The translations under genes and the position numbers were made by a program. Shown in pieces: positions 52,054 through 63,559 of a stretch of 64,000 nucleotides of DNA. Every line of letters begins with the position of its first letter. Within the stretch, counting starts at the first letter, position 1. Location: positions 1 through 64,000 of the forward strand of contig JAQBYJ010000015.1 in NCBI GenBank assembly GCA_027622555.1. The letters run 5' to 3'. The DNA comes from Verrucomicrobiota bacterium (GTDB taxonomy: Bacteria; Verrucomicrobiota; Verrucomicrobiia; Opitutales; UBA2995). The notes below the pieces were generated by a model. That model made no database searches. It was not told the DNA's origin and saw nothing but the letters and a program-made list of their open reading frames with translations.

Positions 52054-53427
52054 TTAACCAGACATTGTCGGCATGTCGGGTAAGTCGTACATGGCGATCA
52101 TGTAGGGGTGATCTTCACAATATTCGGTCAGCGGTTTGGCGTTTTCGACCTGTCCGATCGGGCGATTGTTTTTGCCTATGGTTCCGGTTGCGGCGTCACC
52201 GATGTCTTCGCGGATTTCGTCAGCTTTGTTGGACAGGGCTGCTACGATGTCAGGATGAGCGTCGTAAAGGTTGTTCGTTTCACCAACGTCTTCACGGAGG
52301 TTGTATAACTCATTTACTGGTTCACCCGTTTTTAGAAAATGAAGTTTCCAATCTCCAACTCTTACGGCGTCCAGATTGTTTTGAGCATAGTAGTAAAAGG
52401 TATCTCGTGGAGCTTTAGAATTGTCGTCGAACATGAGGTCCTGGATATCCACGCCGTCGATTTTCCTTTCAGGTGAAATGGGTACTCCGAGGAGGTTGGA
52501 GATGGTCGGAAAGAAATCAATGGAGCTGGTTATGGCTTCGGAAGTGGTGGATGCTTGAATACGTTTCGGCCAGCGCATGATGCAGGGGACTCGCTGCCCG
52601 CCTTCCCACGTGCTTGCCTTGGTTCCTCGACAGGGTAAGTTGCTGCCTCCTTCATCACGGGCTCGTGAACCGTTGTCGCTGGTGAAGATGATCAACGTGT
52701 TCTCATCGAGTCCAATTTGTTTCAGATGATCCATCAGGACACCAGTGCTCCAATCAATACATTCAACCGCTCCGCCGTAAGCACCGTTGCGTGAGCGTTC
52801 AAGAAATTGCTTGGGTACGAAGAGGGGCACATGCACATACATGTGAGCCAGATAAAGGAAGAAAGGCTGGTCCTTGTTCTTGTTTATAAATTGAAGGGCT
52901 TCGTCCGTGTAACGCTCGGTGATTCCCCTCTGGTCAGGTTGTTCCTGAATTACCGTTTCGTTTCGAAGGAGGGGAAGAGGAGGGCGCGTTGGCCGGTCGG
53001 ACTGGCGACCCATGTCGTTGCTATAGGGAATGCCGAAGTATTCGTCGAAGCCATGGCGGGTGGGCAGGAATTCGGGCTGATCTCCGCAATGCCACTTCCC
53101 AATGATCTTGGTCGCATAACCGGCTTTTTTGAGTTGGCTGGCGACTGTAGTTTCTTTGCTGCTTATGCCAATGTTATCACCTGGGAAAAGGACAATCTCT
53201 CCATTGAATTCACCAAAGCCGATCCGTGGTGGATAGCATCCCGTCATCATAGCTCCTCGCGAAGGAGAGCAAACGGGTGATGCCATGTAGAAATCGGTAA
53301 ACCGCTTTCCTTCGGCTGCCAGTTTATCCAAGTGGGGTGTGTTGTTTTTGGTGGATCCGTAACAACCTAAATCACCGTAGCCCAGGTCGTCGCAATTGAT
53401 CAGAATGATATTCGGTTTGTCGTCCAT
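52054..53427 (-). CDS. Sulfatase without signal peptide
   Basis: A 457-residue S1-type sulfatase with the signature CSPSR; Cys53 is the formylglycine site, followed by GAMMTGCYPP. DDLGYGD at 13-19 and TSDNGSRARDEGGSNLPC show the family fold. The protein starts MDDKPNIILINCDD: there is no signal peptide, and an in-frame stop lies 30 bp upstream of the ATG with no alternative start between. It is therefore predicted to stay in the cytoplasm, unlike the three other sulfatases. It resembles N-sulfoglucosamine/arylsulfatase A types more than its neighbours; substrate unknown. Confidence 0.9.
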   Translation of the reverse strand: MDDKPNIILINCDDLGYGDLGCYGSTKNNTPHLDKLAAEGKRFTDFYMASPVCSPSRGAMMTGCYPPRIGFGEFNGEIVLFPGDNIGISSKETTVASQLKKAGYATKIIGKWHCGDQPEFLPTRHGFDEYFGIPYSNDMGRQSDRPTRPPLPLLRNETVIQEQPDQRGITERYTDEALQFINKNKDQPFFLYLAHMYVHVPLFVPKQFLERSRNGAYGGAVECIDWSTGVLMDHLKQIGLDENTLIIFTSDNGSRARDEGGSNLPCRGTKASTWEGGQRVPCIMRWPKRIQASTTSEAITSSIDFFPTISNLLGVPISPERKIDGVDIQDLMFDDNSKAPRDTFYYYAQNNLDAVRVGDWKLHFLKTGEPVNELYNLREDVGETNNLYDAHPDIVAALSNKADEIREDIGDAATGTIGKNNRPIGQVENAKPLTEYCEDHPYMIAMYDLPDMPTMSG

Positions 53428-53820
53428 AGTGTGATTCCAAATTGAGTTTAGTTGTTAGAGAGGTCAAGGGTTGGCGTAAAGACTGGTGCGAGTGGTAAGG
53501 GTAACAACCACAGATGAACTCAAATAAACTCAGATTAAGTTTAGAGAATAATCACCAATCTTCGCCAAGGCTACGACACGGCACGGCTGATCGCACTGAT
53601 GAACGCTGATAAAAAAAAGGTTCTTAACTAATCTTGATATTGGAAATGCAAAGGCTTCGGCTTATCTGAAGTAACTGTAAGGTTTAACCCGAATAATCGG
53701 ATTGAAAAGTATCGGTGCTAATCAGCGTGATCAGTGGTTGAATGAAATCTCATTGTGTCTCCCTTGTGTTACACAGAAATGAATTGAAGCCGTCCTCCTG
53801 GTGCAGGATATTGATGATCT
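53428..53820. repeat. Intergenic region with degenerate CACTGATnACGCTGAT repeats
   Basis: No gene is seen in 393 bp. Three degenerate copies of one word family occur: about 53512 (CACAGATGAACTC), 53594-53610 (CACTGATGAACGCTGAT) and, in inverted orientation, 53721-53736 (ATCAGCGTGATCAGTG). Such words are common non-coding debris in this phylum. The promoter of the four-gene operon at 53821 must also lie here. Confidence 0.45.
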
Positions 53821-54684
53821 ATGAATCTTCGTCTCATTACCCTAATCCTCGTGATTCCTCTGATTGGGTTTTCTCAATTGGCTCCTGAGAAATCCTATAA
53901 GGTTATTTCTGACATTATCTATACTGATGGAGAAGGTAAGCCTCAGGGTTTAGATCTGTATCTTCCAAACAAAAAATCTGCCAAGCCACTGCCGGTGGTT
54001 GTTTGGGTCCATGGTGGAGGTTGGATGAACGGGAGTAAGCAAAAGCCCAGAGCTGAATACCTAGCGGAACATGGGTATGCGGTAGCCAGCATTGATTTTC
54101 GTCAGTCTCATGATGCCATGTGGCCCGCTCAGATCAATGACTGTCGAAATGCGGTCCGGTGGCTACGGTCCCATGCCGAAACGTATCATTTGAATCCCGA
54201 GAAGATTGGCGCCTGGGGAAGTTCTTCCGGCGGACATCTGGTCGCGCTTATGGGAACCTTGCCTTATGATCCCAATGAAAAAGTTTCCAGTCGTGTCCAA
54301 GCCGTCTGCGATTGGTTTGGTCCAACCGATCTTCTAAGCATGCCACCCAACAATGTTGGCAACGGTCGGACTGAAGAGGATGTCGCAAATTCCAATGGAG
54401 CGAAGCTTCTTGGCTGTACGGTCAAGGATTGTCCGGATTTGGCAAAACAAGTAAGCGGCCTGCACAATGTAAGTAGTGATGATGCCCCCTTCCTCATCAT
54501 GCACGGCGACGAGGATCCAGGAGTTCCCGTTTCCCAAAGCACTCGTTTACATGAAGAACTTCAGGCGCACGGAGTATACTCCGAATTGGAGATAGTTGTG
54601 GGTGCTGGCCACGGTGGACCTCAATTCGTCTCCGCTCCCGTTAAGCAGCGGGTGCTGAAGTTTTTTGATTCCTTTCTCAAATAG
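53821..54684 (+). CDS. Exported alpha/beta hydrolase, BD-FAE/esterase type
   Basis: A 287-residue hydrolase with signal peptide (about 1-20). The oxyanion block HGGGW at 64-68 and the nucleophile Ser135 in GSSSGG place it in the hormone-sensitive-lipase/BD-FAE group, often esterases of acyl or feruloyl groups on glycans. HGDEDP provides the acid, and the C-terminal GAGHGG the His. First gene of a four-gene operon (53821-60547) with 35 bp to the next start. Confidence 0.85.
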   Translation: MNLRLITLILVIPLIGFSQLAPEKSYKVISDIIYTDGEGKPQGLDLYLPNKKSAKPLPVVVWVHGGGWMNGSKQKPRAEYLAEHGYAVASIDFRQSHDAMWPAQINDCRNAVRWLRSHAETYHLNPEKIGAWGSSSGGHLVALMGTLPYDPNEKVSSRVQAVCDWFGPTDLLSMPPNNVGNGRTEEDVANSNGAKLLGCTVKDCPDLAKQVSGLHNVSSDDAPFLIMHGDEDPGVPVSQSTRLHEELQAHGVYSELEIVVGAGHGGPQFVSAPVKQRVLKFFDSFLK

Positions 54685-54719
54685 TCCATAGCTTGTTCAG
54701 CTCACTTGCTCCACTACTC

Positions 54720-55607
54720 ATGATGCACAGACGAACTTTTCTCAAGACCGCGACTCTGGGTGGAGCAGCCTTAACAAGTACCTTTCGAACCCAGGCTTCA
54801 GCAGCTTCGCCCATAAATGTACCCGAAATAGGTGGCATCCAATTGGCCATTGCAACGATTTGTATGGACGGATTCGGCGATGAAAACTTCGAGCCCTCTT
54901 TCCACTTGGCTCCGAAAATAGGGTTTAAGAATATTGAATTCAATTGCTGGTATCCCAGGACACTCACTCTGGACGGTATTCGTAGTATTGGTAGACGTTG
55001 CAAAGAAAAAGGACTGATTCCTATTTCAGTTCAGGGAAATGGATTTGGTGACGGCAAAGCACCTGATGTTTCTCATAAACTCTGGTGTATGCAGGCTGCC
55101 CAAATGTTAGGGTGCAACCGTGTTAAATTTACGGGGTCGAAACGCGGGACCAATGGCGGACTTCAAGCTGTGATTGGTACTTTGAAGGAATTGGCACCAG
55201 CTGCGGAAGAAATGGGGATGCTGATTTGTGTGGAAAACCACGCCAACAACAACCTGGAGAATGTAGCTGATTATGATGCGGTATTTTCAGCGATCGACTC
55301 TCCCTATGTGGGTATGTGTCTGGACGCCGGACACTTCGACGGAGCAGCCGTGCGGATACCGGAGGTCATAGAAAAATTCCACAGCCGAATAGTGCATGTG
55401 GATCTAAAAGATTGTCAGACGTTTGGTACCTACAAAACAGTTCGTTTTGGAGAGGGTATTACCGATTTAAATGGAATGATTCAAAAACTCATTGAGCATG
55501 GTTATCAGGGCTACCTGGTTGTCGAACAGGCTCCACCCATCGTTCAAGAAACTCTGGAAGAGGATCTTCGAGCAGGCTATGAAATGTTTAAGAAATACGA
55601 GAGTTAA
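54720..55607 (+). CDS. Tat-exported TIM-barrel sugar isomerase-like protein
   Basis: A 295-residue protein. It opens with the twin-arginine motif HRRTFLKTA and an AA-rich hydrophobic stretch ending in QASAA, so it should be exported folded. The body is a hydroxypyruvate isomerase/sugar phosphate epimerase-type TIM barrel: ICVENHANNN, MCLDAGHFD and the C-terminal VVEQAPP are the metal-ligand regions. The ATG at 54720 is preceded by an in-frame start at 54693 that is less likely. Exported enzymes of this fold are known in this phylum, though substrates are largely unknown. Confidence 0.8.
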   Translation: MMHRRTFLKTATLGGAALTSTFRTQASAASPINVPEIGGIQLAIATICMDGFGDENFEPSFHLAPKIGFKNIEFNCWYPRTLTLDGIRSIGRRCKEKGLIPISVQGNGFGDGKAPDVSHKLWCMQAAQMLGCNRVKFTGSKRGTNGGLQAVIGTLKELAPAAEEMGMLICVENHANNNLENVADYDAVFSAIDSPYVGMCLDAGHFDGAAVRIPEVIEKFHSRIVHVDLKDCQTFGTYKTVRFGEGITDLNGMIQKLIEHGYQGYLVVEQAPPIVQETLEEDLRAGYEMFKKYES

Positions 55608-55626
55608 TCATTGTATTCAAATTCTA

Positions 55627-58143
55627 ATGCCATCATTCATCTCCAGCCGCCTTTCAATCTTGTTCGGGCTTTTGATTCTTTTGAATCGTAGTGTATTCGT
55701 TTCTGCCCAAATGCCTGAGGTTCACGAATCGGGATTGACCTTAACCCTGTTTGCCGAGGATCCCGACATTGTTACCCCCGTTGGAATGGTGGTTGGTGAT
55801 GACGATAAAATCTATGTGATCGAATCGCATACCCATAATCGTCCAAATAATTACAAAGGGCCTACTGGCGACGTCATCAAAGTATTTGTAGATGAGGATA
55901 AAGATGGTGTAGCTGATTCGAATTTCGTTTTTGCTGAAGGTTTTGAAGCTGCCATGAATCTGGCATTTTCCAAAGATGGCACCTTGTATGTTCTCTGTGC
56001 CTGGTCCCTGTATGCGCTTCCTGATCGCGACGGTGATGGTGTCTGTGACGGTCCTGAATTAATTCTAGAACTGGAAACCAAGGCGGGCAATCCACACGGC
56101 TGTTGGCTTGGGATAACTTTCGATGATGAAAATCGTCTCTTTATTTCACGCGGCAATGTGGGCGGAGAATATTATCGAATTCAAGGTAAGGACGGTTCGG
56201 TTGTTGAAGGATACGGTGATGGAGGCAATGTGGTGCGTGCCAGGGCGGACGGCACTGAACTTCAGGAGTGGGCAACCGGGTTCTGGAATTCCATGGACTT
56301 GAAGTTCGATCACAAAGGGAATCTGCTGCTCATCGACAATGACCCCGATGCTCGCGGACCCAACCGGCTGGTTCGCATAGTTGAAGGGGGTGACTACGGG
56401 CACAAGCACATGTTCGGCGGAGATGGGCGACATCCTTTTCAGGGTTGGGACGGGAGTTTTCCCGGGCATTTACCTATTTTGTCCGGTACGGGCGAAGCAC
56501 CCTCCGGACTGATCGATGTTTCTCCGAGGGGAAAGCATTCTGTTTTGGTTTCTGTCTGGAACGAGCACACCATCGAGCGGCATGACATTTTAAAAAACAA
56601 TCAGGTCGAGAAATCGATTTTCATGTCAGGCGGAAAAAACTTTCGGCCAGTTGCGTTGGATCAGGACAGCGCAGGAAACCTCTTCATCAGCGACTGGATG
56701 CTGGTGGACTACCCGAACCACGGCAAAGGTCGGATATGGAGAGTTTCCAAACTTCCGATACCCAAGCAGGAAAAAGTGGTCAGGCAAGTAGCACCAACCC
56801 GTAAATCCATCCATAGCGTTTTTAAAAACGCCGATCCCTTTGTGCGGCAACGAGGAGAGTTGTGGTTGTCGAAACCAGAGCAAAAGTCCCTGGCCATTCA
56901 ACTCAGTGGGGATTCTGATCCTCTGGTGCGCTTGGGTGCCTTCCTGGCATTACGGCGGACCAAAACAGCGGACCATCACTTGATCAGAAATGCTTTAGCC
57001 GATCCTGATATGGATGTGCGTTTGCTTGCTTTAATGTGGGCTGGCGAAACCTTGGAAGTTTCGCTGAGGCCGGCGTTAGATGAAGTGCTGGTGGCCGGCG
57101 AAGTAACAGCACGATTGTTCAATACCTACCTCGCAGCGGTGGAGATGGTGAATGAGACCTTTATCGAAGCGTTTAAAAAGAAAGCTTACAGTTCCAAGAA
57201 AGTGCCCCGTGAGTTGGAGCCTCGCTTGTTGTTGAAACTGGCCCTTAATCCAAGGCTTTCCTCACTCGTCAGAGCCGAAGCGGTGAAACGTCTCAAGGAA
57301 GAAGAAGCCGTGGAATTCCTTTTCAGCAACGAAGAAGCGGTCCTGAGAGCAGCCATAGAAAAGGTGGCCTCGGTCGCTATACCCCAGGTTGGCAAACGGT
57401 TTCGGGAAATTGCTTTGGATTCCAATCAAGCCAGTGAAGTGAGAGCAGAGGCTTTGCTTGGTTTGAGCAAACAAGTGATCGAAGAACCATCGAGTTTATT
57501 ACCCTTACTCAAGGATGCGGATTCCTCCGTCGCTTACGAAGCGGCACGAACGCTTCGCTATTACGCGGGGACTGCCTCCGTGAGGGCTGCTTTCGGCGAG
57601 CTCGAACAAACAAACTCCAAAGATAAATATTTGAAGGAGTTAGTCGCTGTTGTGCTTCACGGACTTTCGATGGATCAGCGTCCGAAAACTCTGGAGGAGT
57701 GGAAAAAGGCTGCGGTTTCCGGTGGAGATCCCAGCCGAGGAGATCGGGTGTTCCGGACCACCCAATCCATGTGTACCCGATGCCATGCGGTGGACGGCGG
57801 TGGCACCAACTTGGGTCCGGATCTGGGAGGGATCGCCCAATCGGTAACACCCGCGCAGATAGCGCACTCGATCTTGAGACCTTCTGATTCCTTTCCTCCG
57901 CAATACCAGGCCTGGAACATTTATACCACCGATGGCAAAATTCATTCGGGTATCCAGATCGACCACCAAAACCATGGCGCCATGCTGCTTTATACCACGG
58001 AAAATATTAACCGCCGGTTCGAGGCCAAGGAGGTAAAAAATTACGAAGCCTCGCCTTACTCACTGATGCCGCAAGGTCTGGAGAATACGATGACTGTTTC
58101 GGAGTTCAAGGACCTGGTGGCTTACCTCTCTTCTCTGAAATAA
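55627..58143 (+). CDS. PVC-type membrane-bound dehydrogenase with HEAT repeats and cytochrome c
   Basis: An 838-residue exported protein from ATG 55627 (signal about 1-28). Domain order: an N-terminal beta-propeller of the glucose/sorbosone dehydrogenase or PVC NHL type (about 30-380, with DKIYVIESHTHNRPN, GTLYVLCAWSLYALPDRDGD and the repeated Asp-rich turns), a central HEAT-like helical region, and a C-terminal cytochrome c with CTRCH at 716-720. The distal Met is probably in the Met-rich stretch near the end. Such proteins oxidise sugars or alcohols in the periplasm and pass electrons to cytochromes. The start at 55627 is chosen because it gives a signal peptide; an open frame continues to 55492 inside the previous gene. 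Confidence 0.85.
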   Translation: MPSFISSRLSILFGLLILLNRSVFVSAQMPEVHESGLTLTLFAEDPDIVTPVGMVVGDDDKIYVIESHTHNRPNNYKGPTGDVIKVFVDEDKDGVADSNFVFAEGFEAAMNLAFSKDGTLYVLCAWSLYALPDRDGDGVCDGPELILELETKAGNPHGCWLGITFDDENRLFISRGNVGGEYYRIQGKDGSVVEGYGDGGNVVRARADGTELQEWATGFWNSMDLKFDHKGNLLLIDNDPDARGPNRLVRIVEGGDYGHKHMFGGDGRHPFQGWDGSFPGHLPILSGTGEAPSGLIDVSPRGKHSVLVSVWNEHTIERHDILKNNQVEKSIFMSGGKNFRPVALDQDSAGNLFISDWMLVDYPNHGKGRIWRVSKLPIPKQEKVVRQVAPTRKSIHSVFKNADPFVRQRGELWLSKPEQKSLAIQLSGDSDPLVRLGAFLALRRTKTADHHLIRNALADPDMDVRLLALMWAGETLEVSLRPALDEVLVAGEVTARLFNTYLAAVEMVNETFIEAFKKKAYSSKKVPRELEPRLLLKLALNPRLSSLVRAEAVKRLKEEEAVEFLFSNEEAVLRAAIEKVASVAIPQVGKRFREIALDSNQASEVRAEALLGLSKQVIEEPSSLLPLLKDADSSVAYEAARTLRYYAGTASVRAAFGELEQTNSKDKYLKELVAVVLHGLSMDQRPKTLEEWKKAAVSGGDPSRGDRVFRTTQSMCTRCHAVDGGGTNLGPDLGGIAQSVTPAQIAHSILRPSDSFPPQYQAWNIYTTDGKIHSGIQIDHQNHGAMLLYTTENINRRFEAKEVKNYEASPYSLMPQGLENTMTVSEFKDLVAYLSSLK

Positions 58144-58144
58144 C

Positions 58145-60547
58145 ATGACTCTGTTACGCAAAATCTTCTGGATGTTCGTTTGCCTCTTATTCCAGGTAGG
58201 AGGTCTCCAAGCCGCAACCTTCCACTCTCAGTTTCCTGAATACACCCGCACCTGGATCGGTCCTGATTATTGGGCCAACCGCCTGCAGGACTGGCGGGTT
58301 ACCATGGGTCGGCTGGAATGCCTCAATGGAGAGAGCGACAAACCGCTGCGTACGGTCCATTGGTTGACCGGAGGCATTGCTGACAATGGTGAAGGCTTTG
58401 AAGTGTCGGTCAGAACCGGGACGCTTGGATTCGCCACCCTGGCTGATGGATCTTCCTACAGTGGTTTCTTAATTGGAGCTGGCGAAGGCAAACTGGATTA
58501 CCGGGGAGCGGCCCTGATTCATCACGACCCCGGTTTGGGTGGGGGATTACTGGTGGTTTTCAACGACAAAGGGCAGGCTCAATTTATTCGCAACGATGAG
58601 GAAGGAAAAAACAGAACCGTGCTGGCATCCGGTCAAAATAATAGCGCGGAAACCCGGACGGGCGCGCTTGGGAATTTTGAAGATTACCGCCTGGATTTGA
58701 AGGTTTCGCGAGAGATAGACGGTAAGCGTGAACTGTGGCTTTCGGTTGTGGATCTTTTTAGCGGGAATGTTGTTTCTTCAACGGGGATTAAAAATTTCCC
58801 CTCCGAAAAGCTTCGCGGTGGTTTGGCCCTGGTGTCCCATGGCGGCAGGGCTAATGAGCGGCGATTCTGGTTCAGGAATTGGGAGCTATCGGGAGAGGGG
58901 ATCGTCAAATACCCTGAACGCAGTTACGGTCCGGTGTTGGGAGTTATCTACTCAGTGGATGGGAATCGCCTGAAATTGAACGCTCAGTTTCCTCCGCTTG
59001 GATTCAATGATTCCAGCCATGCGTTACTTGAAATAAAAAGAAACGGGAGGGAATGGAGTCAGGTGGGCGATGCCCTGATAGAGGCTCCCAGCTTTACAGC
59101 CCTGTTTGACTTGGAATTGGATGGGCTCAACCAGGGTATGGATTTCCGGGTCGGTTACTTATACGAGGGAGAGGGTGTTTGGTTTGAGGGTAACATTCCA
59201 GTAGCTCCGAAACAGGGTGAGGAGGTTCGCGTTGCCGGAGTTACCTGTTATCAAAACCTGGCCCGTGCGGCTGACGGTTCGTGGGGTGAAGGTGCGGCCG
59301 GTTCGCCGGAAGGTCGGTGGACTCCTCACAACGTGTGGTTTCCTCATAATCAGCTCATTTCAAGTTTGAAGAGGCAGGACCTGGATTTGTTGGCCCTGCT
59401 GGGTGACCAGATTTACGAGGGTGGTAATCCGACCGGATCGGATGCCTCCGAAGGGAACCCGCATCTGGATTATTTATACAAGTGGTTTATCACGCTTTGG
59501 GATCTGGGGCGAATTACCCGCGTGGTGCCGACCGTGGTGCTGGTCGATGACCACGATGTATATCAAGGAGACTTGTGGGGTGATGGTGGCACTGCCAGTC
59601 GCAATGGCCAAAACAAGGACGGTGGTTATATCCACGCCCCCGAATTCGTTCGCATGGTGGAGCGCACTCAGACGGCCGCCAATCCGGAGCCCTTGCGGCG
59701 TGAACACATCCAGCAAGGACTGACAAGTTATTACACTGACTTCGAAATGGGAGGCGTAAAGTTTGTTCTCCTTGAAGACCGCAAATTCAAAAGCCTGCCT
59801 ACGTTGGTCGGCCCGGTGGAAAAATATGGATCCAAAATCGCAAATGCCGATTACGATGGCAGGCAGGCGGATATTCCGAATGGGCAATTGTTGGGGGCTC
59901 AACAGGAAGCCTTTCTGCAGAGTTGGATTGATCGAACCGAGGGCGTACGGATTGGATTTACGCAAACGCTCTTTGCTTCCCTGCATACCGCACCTTCGGG
60001 CAAGCTCTGGCTTGACCTCGATTCGGGGGGGTGGCCTCAGAGTGGTCGCAATCGTGCCCTGGAAGTATTAGCTCAAGGAAATGTAATTCTCCTTTCCGGG
60101 GATACGCATCTGCCCGCGGTTCTACAGCATGGGGTCAAAGGTTTTGGTGATAGTGTCTGGCAGTTTGTCGTGCCGTCCATTGCCAACAAATACCGACGCT
60201 GGTGGGAGCCCAAGGAAGACGGTGCCAACCGTAGGTCGGGTGAACCATATTACACAGGCGATTTTTTTGACGGATTTGGAAACCGCATGACTGTTGCCGC
60301 GGTAGGCAACCCTCATACCTCCAACCAGGAGATGTTTGAAATCAATGTTGAACGCAACATAGGCTATGCCAGTGAGCATCTATTACTCGACAGCCAACAA
60401 ACCAAAGATGGCTACGGTATGATTGTAATCTCACCCGACCGAAAACAAATCACCCTTGAATGCTGGCCAACCGATTCGGTGAATCAGCACGAAGGTTGGC
60501 CGGTAATTCTGAAACAAGAACCCGTATCCGGGAAATGGGTTCGGTGA
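58145..60547 (+). CDS. PhoD-like metallophosphatase
   Basis: An 800-residue exported protein (signal about 1-23, ending LQA). The first 350 residues form an N-terminal module, probably a carbohydrate-related or laminin-like jelly roll (WIGPDYWANRLQDW...). The C-terminal half is a PhoD-type phosphatase/phosphodiesterase: GDQIYEGG with Asp421, the metal motif DDHD at 468-471 and SGDTH with Asp653 and His655. The gene starts one base after the previous stop. PhoD enzymes remove phosphate from teichoic acids or glycans; a sugar- or lipid-linked substrate is likely here, given its operon. Confidence 0.85.
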   Translation: MTLLRKIFWMFVCLLFQVGGLQAATFHSQFPEYTRTWIGPDYWANRLQDWRVTMGRLECLNGESDKPLRTVHWLTGGIADNGEGFEVSVRTGTLGFATLADGSSYSGFLIGAGEGKLDYRGAALIHHDPGLGGGLLVVFNDKGQAQFIRNDEEGKNRTVLASGQNNSAETRTGALGNFEDYRLDLKVSREIDGKRELWLSVVDLFSGNVVSSTGIKNFPSEKLRGGLALVSHGGRANERRFWFRNWELSGEGIVKYPERSYGPVLGVIYSVDGNRLKLNAQFPPLGFNDSSHALLEIKRNGREWSQVGDALIEAPSFTALFDLELDGLNQGMDFRVGYLYEGEGVWFEGNIPVAPKQGEEVRVAGVTCYQNLARAADGSWGEGAAGSPEGRWTPHNVWFPHNQLISSLKRQDLDLLALLGDQIYEGGNPTGSDASEGNPHLDYLYKWFITLWDLGRITRVVPTVVLVDDHDVYQGDLWGDGGTASRNGQNKDGGYIHAPEFVRMVERTQTAANPEPLRREHIQQGLTSYYTDFEMGGVKFVLLEDRKFKSLPTLVGPVEKYGSKIANADYDGRQADIPNGQLLGAQQEAFLQSWIDRTEGVRIGFTQTLFASLHTAPSGKLWLDLDSGGWPQSGRNRALEVLAQGNVILLSGDTHLPAVLQHGVKGFGDSVWQFVVPSIANKYRRWWEPKEDGANRRSGEPYYTGDFFDGFGNRMTVAAVGNPHTSNQEMFEINVERNIGYASEHLLLDSQQTKDGYGMIVISPDRKQITLECWPTDSVNQHEGWPVILKQEPVSGKWVR

Positions 60548-60640: not shown

Positions 60641-63559
60641 CTAGAATCTGAATTCAGCGCTCAGGCGATAATCGCGACGTGGTGTAAGAATGTGTCTCCA
60701 CACCTCGTAGCTGCCATCAGGTCTGGGAGTATCATCCAGTCTTGCTACAGAGATATCATCTTTGTCGAAGAGGTTACTCACGTTAAACTGAAGTTTGACT
60801 GGCATACCAAAGAGCTCGGTGTTGTAACCTGCTACGAAGTCAAACAGGGTCATTCCATTAAACTCTTGTGGACCGAGAATCGCGCTTTCCTGGATCCACG
60901 TGGCACCACTCCTGTAACGTGCTCCACCACCAATCGACAAGTCTTTCAATGCACCTTCCTTGAAGGTATATTTGGTGAACAAGTTGAACTTGTGATGTCT
61001 TTGTCCTGAGCTGGTTCCGCCTGCACGGTTTTGAACTGCTGTGGCTGCCGTTTCAGTAATCGATATGGCCTCACCCAATGTTACTCCGGGTTCGAATGGT
61101 CCGTCTTGGGGTAAGACGAAATTTTGGTCGAACTTTTTAAAGAAAGATTTGCCCGTGGTCCCTTCCCACCAGCCGGTCCATTCCTGAAAGATATCTTTGA
61201 GAACGGAATCGATATAGGAATAGTTGGCCGTGAGGCGCCAATTGTCGGTGATGTTGGTTACAATCGAAAATTCATATCCGGTTGTCTCCGCTGAAGTAGT
61301 TCCCACATCCACTGTGATATCCTGGGCATCAAAAACGGACTGCGTTATGAAGGGAGCGATTGGTGGAGTAGCGCCGGGGTTACCGGCAACCAGGTTATCG
61401 TAGATGGTGTTTACCGCTGCAATGGGGCTAATGCTCCCGAAGGAAAGGAATGAGCTTTCTTGATTCGACGAAGTTTCAAAGTAGGTACTTTGAATGTACA
61501 TTTTCCCGTCCAGAAGATTGAAATTAATCGAGTAATCAACCGTTTCACCACTTATTACCGGTACCGCTCCGCCTGTTTCCCCGGAAGGTCCAAAGATTTC
61601 CCGTTCCGCAAAATCAGAGGCCGCAGCATTTGTCGCCTTGTTGGCAGCTAAAGAAACGATATCGTTGACATGGAATACCAATCCCGCAGTCCGGGTTGTT
61701 GGTTTGATTTCGGTTCTACTTACATCGGTCAGATCGAGAACGTCTCTTTGCCCATTGGTGTTGTTGTTGATCTGGGCTGGTGACGCACTTTTGAAATCAT
61801 CTTTTCTAAAGCCGTAGGTCGTAACGATTCTATTATCCCAAAAGTAACTTTGCAAAGCGAACATGAGGGATTCGGTTTTTCTGGTATCGTTGCCAATCCG
61901 GTTTTGCACCCAGTCCGATGTCACGGTTCTGCCGTCTGTAGTCGTAGCCGTATAACCGACTCCCTTTCTCTCGGGATCGTAGCCAACCCGCCAGTCTTTA
62001 GTGCTGTCTATGTCAGTTAAATAGTGACGCCATAATACCTGATTATTTCCATTGTAGGGATTGTTGTTGAATGGTCCATTCCAAGTGGGATTATTGGCCG
62101 GTCCCGGGCCGGTCCATACGTTTAAGAAGGAATCGCGATGGAAAAGGTTATCCTGTTGTTCCCACATCGCTGCAAAACGGTGTAAACCCAGCCAATTATC
62201 GAAATCCTGTTGATGGGAGAAAGTCACACGTTTCCATTCATCTTCAAAATACCGTTCGTCCAATTCCAGTATCGATTCAAAGTAAAGTTCCTGGAAATAA
62301 GGGTTTGCTGAACCGTTTGGTAAATTGCGGTTTGGATCTCCTTGAAGATTGGATGGCTGACCCATGCGAAACGAGTCTCGTTGGGCTTGCATATTGGTAA
62401 ATGCAAACTCCAAAAAGGTATTTTCTCCAAGACGCTGCTCAACGGTTGCTGAGAAAATGTCTATATCACGTGAGCCACGCATTTGCCATGGCCCCGAAAG
62501 AGCGGCGTATAGTGGAACTTCAACGGTACCACTTCTTGCTGGATCATTGATAATCCGGTTGTCTTTGGTAAAAGTTGGCTTGACCTTTGAGAATGGATTG
62601 TCCGTCCTCACTGACGCCCTCATATCCACTCCTTCTCCTGAATTGTCTACAATAACGACCCTATTGAGGGTTCCATTTTGTATTCCTTGATTAACGCCAA
62701 CTCCTGAATCACCGGCTGCTGGCCGACCACTCTCTATCCACAGTTTTGCTCCATCGGCTGGTCCGAACGGAAGCGTTGGATTGTCCATGACATCGCCATA
62801 TTCATATTCAACATAGACCGTAGTTGAATCAGTTGCTCTCCATTCCAAGGCGATGTGAGCGCGTTTATCTTGGTGGTCTACCCAAGGCCGACCCGCTTCT
62901 CCGTTAGTATTGTAAAGCATATTGAATCGCAACGCCAGTTTGTCTTCAACAAGCACTTTATTAGTGTCAATTGCCGCGCGGAATCGACTCGCGTCGCCTA
63001 CGGTGATATCGAGTGTTGTGAAATCGATATACTTGGGGCGTTTGGTTGAAGAGTTGATCACACCTCCTGGCTGGCCGATTCCAAATAGAATGGAGTTGGG
63101 GCCGCGGGATTCGTCTATACGTTCCATATTGAAAACATCCTGGTCGAGGCGTGTCTCGAAGAAGTTTCTCGCTTGAGATGCGCCTAAACCGCGAACACGA
63201 TAACGGGCGTCGAAAGCCGTTAACTGATTCGCGCCGAAACCACCGTCTACATCGGACAACTCTGGTGTTACACTCAGAGAGTATTTCAATACATCCTCCA
63301 AGGTATCGACGCCAATATCACTGATGAATTCAGCAGTATAAACCGATATCGGGGCAGCGGTATCTCTCAGGGATGTGTTCAATCGACTACCGGCCAGGGT
63401 ATTCTCAGCGGCGTAACCAACGTCACCTGAGGAATTTACCTGAAAAGGAGATAGATCGTAGATTTTGTCGTCTTCATTTTGAGCGACGAGCAGGCTCGGT
63501 CCGGCAAGTAGAAGAGCTGCAGGTACCAGGCGAATTAGGCATTGTTTAGTTGGTTTCAT
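60641..63559 (-). CDS. TonB-dependent receptor
   Basis: A 972-residue outer-membrane receptor. Signal peptide about 1-26 (ending LLVAQ). A short N-terminal segment (DLSPFQVNSSGDVGYAAENTLAGSR), the TonB-box-like start, precedes the plug (ETRLDQDVFNMERIDESRGPNS and FGIGQPGGVIN) and a 22-strand barrel; it ends in DYRLSAEFRF with the usual C-terminal Phe. This form, with the characteristic AENTLAGSRL opening, is abundant in Verrucomicrobiota and imports oligosaccharides or other large ligands. A LacI-type regulator gene lies upstream, at the window edge, on the same strand. Confidence 0.93.
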   Translation of the reverse strand: MKPTKQCLIRLVPAALLLAGPSLLVAQNEDDKIYDLSPFQVNSSGDVGYAAENTLAGSRLNTSLRDTAAPISVYTAEFISDIGVDTLEDVLKYSLSVTPELSDVDGGFGANQLTAFDARYRVRGLGASQARNFFETRLDQDVFNMERIDESRGPNSILFGIGQPGGVINSSTKRPKYIDFTTLDITVGDASRFRAAIDTNKVLVEDKLALRFNMLYNTNGEAGRPWVDHQDKRAHIALEWRATDSTTVYVEYEYGDVMDNPTLPFGPADGAKLWIESGRPAAGDSGVGVNQGIQNGTLNRVVIVDNSGEGVDMRASVRTDNPFSKVKPTFTKDNRIINDPARSGTVEVPLYAALSGPWQMRGSRDIDIFSATVEQRLGENTFLEFAFTNMQAQRDSFRMGQPSNLQGDPNRNLPNGSANPYFQELYFESILELDERYFEDEWKRVTFSHQQDFDNWLGLHRFAAMWEQQDNLFHRDSFLNVWTGPGPANNPTWNGPFNNNPYNGNNQVLWRHYLTDIDSTKDWRVGYDPERKGVGYTATTTDGRTVTSDWVQNRIGNDTRKTESLMFALQSYFWDNRIVTTYGFRKDDFKSASPAQINNNTNGQRDVLDLTDVSRTEIKPTTRTAGLVFHVNDIVSLAANKATNAAASDFAEREIFGPSGETGGAVPVISGETVDYSINFNLLDGKMYIQSTYFETSSNQESSFLSFGSISPIAAVNTIYDNLVAGNPGATPPIAPFITQSVFDAQDITVDVGTTSAETTGYEFSIVTNITDNWRLTANYSYIDSVLKDIFQEWTGWWEGTTGKSFFKKFDQNFVLPQDGPFEPGVTLGEAISITETAATAVQNRAGGTSSGQRHHKFNLFTKYTFKEGALKDLSIGGGARYRSGATWIQESAILGPQEFNGMTLFDFVAGYNTELFGMPVKLQFNVSNLFDKDDISVARLDDTPRPDGSYEVWRHILTPRRDYRLSAEFRF

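Follow-up and report, generated by a model that had tools for sequence, protein, structure and literature searches.

The locus and its flanking genes

The window, that is, the whole stretch of 64,000 nucleotides analyzed here from the draft genome of an uncultured Verrucomicrobiota bacterium of the Opitutales (contig JAQBYJ010000015.1), contains close to its end a row of four genes, designated g1 to g4, flanked by a sulfatase gene and a gene encoding a TonB-dependent receptor. The features of this locus are the following:

52054–53427, minus strand: divergent Cys-type sulfatase (PF00884, 230 bits; CSPSR motif), part of the core of the genus locus
53549–53617, plus strand: dispersed intergenic repeat upstream of g1, with about 25 further genomic copies
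53821–54684, plus strand: g1, exported BD-FAE/acetyl-xylan-esterase-like alpha/beta hydrolase, 287 aa
54720–55607, plus strand: g2, Tat-type xylose-isomerase-like TIM barrel, 295 aa, candidate 3-keto-glycoside beta-eliminase or epimerase
55627–58143, plus strand: g3, PVC-type heme protein, TIGR02604 and TIGR02603
58145–60547, plus strand: g4, secreted PhoD-like metallophosphatase with a beta-rich N-terminal region, 800 aa
60590–60620, either strand: hairpin between g4 and the convergent TonB receptor gene, with a T-run on the minus strand only
60641–63559, minus strand: TonB-dependent receptor, conserved genus core
63820–64914 (contig positions, just past the window end), behind the TonB receptor gene: LacI-type gene (PF00356)

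The four reading frames are all open and lie on one strand, separated by 35 (g1–g2), 19 (g2–g3) and 1 bp (g3–g4), exactly as in the preliminary description of this tight row. The families proposed there, namely an esterase, a Tat TIM barrel, a PVC cytochrome and a PhoD-like protein, agree with the family-model scans, and the export signals claimed for all four genes were judged by eye from the N-termini, that of g2 bearing a Tat motif. The four genes may be co-transcribed. Sigma-70-like promoter sites occur at chance level.

The spacer preceding g1 had been called repeat-rich. No internal repeats were found in it; it holds instead one copy of a genome-dispersed element of ~68 bp, of which about 25 other copies with 82–93% identity are spread across the draft genome. 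At the opposite end, a strong bidirectional terminator had been described as separating the row from the TonB receptor gene. The hairpin is real, it sits between g4 and the convergent receptor gene, and it is strong on both strands (z −3.3 on the plus and −4.3 on the minus strand); however, a good T-run is confined to the minus strand. The hairpin therefore clearly serves the receptor gene, and its bidirectional role is supported in part only.

Considered against the criteria for SusCD-type loci, the flanking genes scanned include the TonB receptor and neither a SusD nor a glycoside hydrolase gene. The regulator present is of the LacI type, and no phosphate regulator is in view at the locus. 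The sulfatase begins right at its catalytic domain (MDDKPNIILINCDD) with no obvious signal peptide, as do its 86–92% identical congener homologs. Judged from this N-terminus, it may be cytoplasmic and hence act apart from the exported enzymes.

Properties of the four encoded proteins

The first protein of the row, g1, matches PF20434 (BD-FAE) with 213.5 bits against a cut-off of 26.8. It has the oxyanion motif HGGGW64 along with GSSSGG133, HGDEDP228 and GAGHGG261, the Ser-Asp-His triad is present, and its relatives in the PDB are 6nkf and the GH43-CE protein 6mly.

The TIM-barrel protein g2 (PF01261, AP_endonuc_2, 101 bits) starts with the Tat motif MHRRTFLK. Its residues Glu172-x-His174, Asp202, His226 and Glu269 are kept in six of seven homologous sequences and correspond in pattern to the metal ligands and the catalytic His of 3-keto-glycoside beta-eliminases. 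The corresponding sets are Glu147-x-His149, Asp179, His269 and Glu305 in AgCGD2 (PMC8563793) and His132-x-His134, Asp163, His189 and Glu233 in AtOGE (PMC10628242). The intervals between ligands in g2 (30/24/43) resemble those of AtOGE (31/26/44), and the Lys ligand found at His+2 in AgCGD2 corresponds to Asp228. Epimerases have the same four-ligand set. For these two reasons, the beta-eliminase pattern of g2 serves as a lead rather than a test; the E-x-H motif may also be common among other xylose-isomerase-like proteins. A plasmid collection yielded only distant relatives of g2, with about 26% identity over most of the protein.

In g3, a GSDH/PQQ-dehydrogenase-like beta-propeller (residues ~30–380) is followed by HEAT helices (~390–700) and by a cytochrome c domain running from CTRCH716, the heme-binding motif, to Met814, the distal Met associated with SLMP812. 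The protein exceeds the cut-offs of both TIGR02604 (161.5 versus 122.2 bits) and TIGR02603 (94.8 versus 68.15 bits). In an AF2 model with a pLDDT of 82, the top 16 structural matches of the propeller are all PQQ sugar dehydrogenases with Z-scores of 28–31 (2ism 30.6, 6jt5 30.3, 3a9g 30.1 and 3das 29.4), the next families being lactonases and NHL proteins with Z about 25 or less. The GSDH model PF07995 itself does not match g3 and matches 6 of 14 relatives weakly (best E 3e-4). In the profile alignment, which maps the GSDH catalytic His only approximately, the GFWN218 motif of g3 is paired with the GNRN of the GSDH GxRN motif: the Asn is kept, while the Arg position is occupied by Trp220 in 20 of 20 aligned relatives. 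His157 and Asn221, which lie at probable GSDH active-site positions, vary little or not at all. By the fold of its modeled propeller, g3 thus appears to be a PQQ-dehydrogenase-like protein, whose use of PQQ is doubtful given the Trp shared by all 20 relatives. A search for pqqC in the own genome gave no match, but it is uninformative, as the control genomes gave none either.

These features also bear on an explanation in which g3 would be no dehydrogenase but a redox sensor, an electron shuttle or a carbohydrate-binding cytochrome, and the locus would serve ordinary hydrolytic glycan degradation with an attached cytochrome. The Trp at the PQQ Arg position throughout the branch and the missing PF07995 match speak for it, as does the literature searched, which yielded no protein combining these domains whose function had been tested. 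However, the retention of His157 and Asn221 and a fold match specific to PQQ sugar dehydrogenases argue against it, and we consider it improbable.

The last protein, g4, matches PF09423 (PhoD) with 61.7 bits against a cut-off of 27, and its motifs LGDQIYE419, DDHD468 and GDTH652 hardly vary, if at all, among 25 homologs. Solved structures are distant only (9uya, E 0.007), and the AF2 model, built from an alignment of four sequences, has a pLDDT of 39. For the N-terminal 230 residues no family match was found. A DUF1080 domain (3-keto-disaccharide hydrolase) was considered for this part and rejected, with no Pfam match in g4 or its 25 relatives and no credible match to a solved structure.

Conservation in the genus

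The same gene order was sought in an order-level sample of 70 genomes with each of the four proteins, in a class-level sample of 384 genomes (part of the class) with the PhoD, PVC and TIM proteins, and in a species scan of about 85,000 genomes with two peptide patterns from the PVC alignment, which returned 11 loci. Such a search had been proposed in the preliminary description, where the lack of any conserved neighborhood was held to speak against a joint function. No second case of the exact four-gene order appeared in the 70 order-level genomes, the 384 class-level genomes or the 11 scan loci; its parts, in contrast, recur across families as TIM-PVC-PhoD, PVC-PhoD, TIM-PVC(-esterase) and esterase-PVC.

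Within the genus, two congeners (G001 and G005) have divergent sulfatase and esterase genes, with 86–88% and 75–76% identity, respectively. In both, the esterase gene and the TonB receptor gene are convergent and face each other directly; intact TIM, PVC and PhoD genes are missing from the space between them. Including a third congener, G002, the sulfatase divergent from the esterase is 86–92% identical, and a TonB receptor with 58–63% identity occupies the same place in G001, G004 and G005. Behind the G001 esterase lies a PVC remnant of 70 codons (residues 3–72, 61% identity, E about 1e-20; L072:8934–9143), indicating that the module decayed there. G002 has the sulfatase, the esterase and a PVC gene without TIM, the contig ending within the PVC gene, whose frame is broken near codon 80, while in G004 the PhoD gene is convergent with the TonB receptor gene in the same junction as in the window. 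The esterase-PVC arrangement, together with the PhoD-receptor junction at least for the window and G004, was thus probably present in the genus ancestor and then decayed in some species.

G002 and G004 also have standalone TIM homologs with 51% identity (L068:822–8242 and L069:651–5362), divergent from an apparent ebo-type cluster with UbiA-, TatD- and EboE-like genes, as identified by eye.

Recurrence of the module beyond the genus

In a genome of the same order and another family (G291), TIM, PVC and PhoD genes follow each other as in the window, with gaps of 23 and 28 bp and identities of 70, 57 and 59%. Neither an esterase nor a sulfatase gene adjoins this trio, and contig C26 of the same genome carries a second TIM-PVC pair. 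Divergent from the trio lies L087:12596–15454, whose DUF6797/DUF7133 product has a plastocyanin-type copper domain and might be a partner in electron transfer.

PVC-PhoD pairs lacking the TIM gene occur in G006 and in OX638348 (L102), and TIM is therefore not obligatory. In G006, two PIN-domain genes (L098:5895–6964) lie directly upstream of the pair, at the place which TIM has in G291 and the window. A third genus (G276) shows a run of Gfo/Idh/MocA reductase, MFS transporter, TIM, PVC and FG-GAP-alpha/beta-hydrolase (esterase) genes; JAUHWE010000182 has the order sulfatase-sulfatase-BD-FAE-PVC, and in JAUIAH the PVC gene is followed by that of a glucuronyl-esterase-like protein. The PVC gene is the element common to these partial clusters, and four of the seven closest TIM sequences, the window included, adjoin one.

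Across genomes, the identities of the PVC and PhoD proteins to those of the window rank alike (65/74, 57/59 and 53/58%), as is expected of a unit inherited together. Other PVC relatives, with 38–47% identity, have neither TIM nor PhoD genes adjoining, which confines the module to one branch. In the own genome, 51 TIGR02604 and 22 PhoD stretches were matched. A general genome-wide PVC-PhoD pairing was considered and found unsupported: among the PhoD places of this genome, only g4 adjoins a strong PVC gene.

Very long proteins that include a PhoD-like region internally are encoded at L088:5536–9636 (G303; 1366 aa) and L090:4881–9314 (1477 aa); the former adjoins a 1108-aa sulfatase-like protein, and downstream of the latter are genes similar to those of the ebo cluster.

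A proposed oxidise-then-cleave route and its alternatives

The locus is a mosaic in which a recurring TIM-PVC(-PhoD) module is combined with a conserved core of sulfatase, esterase, TonB receptor and LacI genes. Gene order, families, module recurrence, propeller fold, and metal and heme ligand residues are observations; the substrate, the C3-keto chemistry, the electron route and co-transcription are proposals built on them. The explanation we tentatively favor, while giving it somewhat less than an even chance, is that of a carbohydrate locus (LacI, TonB receptor, sulfatase and esterase) joined by a periplasmic oxidise-then-cleave module formed by TIM, PVC and PhoD. The TonB receptor would take in a sulfated or acylated glycoside or oligosaccharide, from which the g1 esterase would strip acyl groups. 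A sugar hydroxyl would then be oxidized in the GSDH-type propeller of g3, with electrons passing via the cytochrome c domain to the respiratory chain, and the Tat-exported Mn-type TIM barrel g2 would perform beta-elimination of the keto-glycoside or epimerisation of the keto-sugar, g4 acting as an accessory phosphatase or phosphodiesterase. The keto-sugar would finally be taken up and reduced in the cytoplasm, as suggested by the MFS and Gfo/Idh/MocA genes of G276. All steps following import are conjectural. Counted against this explanation are 1) the Trp at the PQQ Arg position of g3, 2) the missing Lys ligand and the possibly common E-x-H motif of g2, 3) the PVC-PhoD pairs lacking TIM, 4) the lack of an evident role for PhoD in such chemistry and of a DUF1080 domain in g4, and 5) the sulfatase/esterase/TonB-receptor core of G001 and G005, which stands there without the module.

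It had initially been suggested that the four proteins deacylate, isomerise, oxidise and dephosphorylate one substrate. The recurring neighborhoods lend some weight to this idea, but the esterase core stands without the other three genes in two congeners, isomerisation fits less well than cleavage, and nothing ties the PhoD-like protein to the same substrate. A single four-step pathway is conjectural, while an oxidise-then-cleave order would, from the residues of g2, suit its predicted active site better.

Alternatively, the genes could have accreted with no pathway in common: frequent shuffling of module genes in these large PVC genomes would have placed a separate PVC-PhoD cassette next to a sulfatase/esterase/TonB-receptor locus. 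This is rather unlikely, while it accounts for several observations: within the searches, no other genome has the exact four-gene set, PVC and PhoD genes are plentiful in the own genome, and G005 and G001 retain the core with the module absent or reduced to a remnant. In contrast, pairs from the same gene families recur, closely spaced, in other taxonomic families, and the matching rank of PVC and PhoD identities also disfavors accretion. Use of a phosphorylated or sulfated exopolymer as a source of scavenged phosphorus or sulfur, with PhoD and the sulfatase in central roles and the PVC protein providing energy or modifying the sugar, would agree with the sulfatase adjoining the cluster and with the long PhoD-like protein directly beside a sulfatase in G303, but it is improbable in view of the LacI gene with no phosphate regulator in view, the TIM-PVC-esterase run of G276 without PhoD, and the many unrelated contexts of PhoD relatives from the branch of g4.

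A more specific form of the favored oxidise-then-cleave explanation would extend it to periplasmic oxidative deglycosylation in PVC bacteria. A GSDH-propeller dehydrogenase fused to a heme domain, whose cofactor mode might differ from classical PQQ binding, would make the keto-glycoside and a Tat-exported Mn TIM barrel would beta-eliminate it, replacing glycoside hydrolases in sulfatase/esterase loci. Such a generalization is speculative and on balance unlikely. If true, part of the orphan TIGR02604 family, which has dozens of members in each genome, would gain a function. Verrucomicrobiota and Planctomycetota show a strong expansion of PVC-type heme proteins, for which the literature consulted gives no tested function (PMC5615132), and a TIM-PVC(-PhoD/-esterase) module with a beta-eliminase-like active site provides a concrete biochemical hypothesis for these orphan proteins, as well as a potential explanation of the place of their genes beside sulfatases.

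Comparison with known systems

For lactose in Caulobacter, a 3-keto route involving LacABC and DUF1080 has been proposed, in which a glycoside is oxidized in the periplasm and the keto-glycoside is then cleaved (PMC9007349). Here, a GSDH propeller-cytochrome c fusion would take the place of LacABC, and a Tat-exported TIM barrel would perform the cleavage without a DUF1080 domain. With AtOGE and the CGE/DgpBC enzymes (PMC10628242, PMC8563793), g2 shares a TIM barrel with the Glu- or His-x-His, Asp, His, Glu set, in the spacing of AtOGE; unlike them, it carries an export signal, lacks the Lys of AgCGD2 at His+2, and has no gene for a small beta subunit seen adjoining it. The PQQ aldose sugar dehydrogenases and the AA12 pyranose dehydrogenase (2ism, 3a9g, 3das, 6jt5; PMC4332668) have the same six-bladed propeller, and CcPDH is also fused to a cytochrome, whereas in g3 the cytochrome c domain is C-terminal, after a HEAT region, the GxRN Arg is replaced by Trp and PQQ binding is putative. 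Finally, in freshwater Verrucomicrobia, genes of planctomycete-specific cytochromes (PSCyt) without known function have been described beside sulfatases, their products being predicted to be periplasmic or cytoplasmic and presumed to have mono- or oligomers as substrates after import (PMC5615132). As in those neighborhoods, a PVC-type cytochrome protein is encoded here beside a sulfatase; in contrast to them, its partners are specified as a TIM barrel, a PhoD-like protein and a BD-FAE esterase, the TIM-PVC-PhoD order is conserved, and the cytochrome is of the TIGR02604/02603 type.
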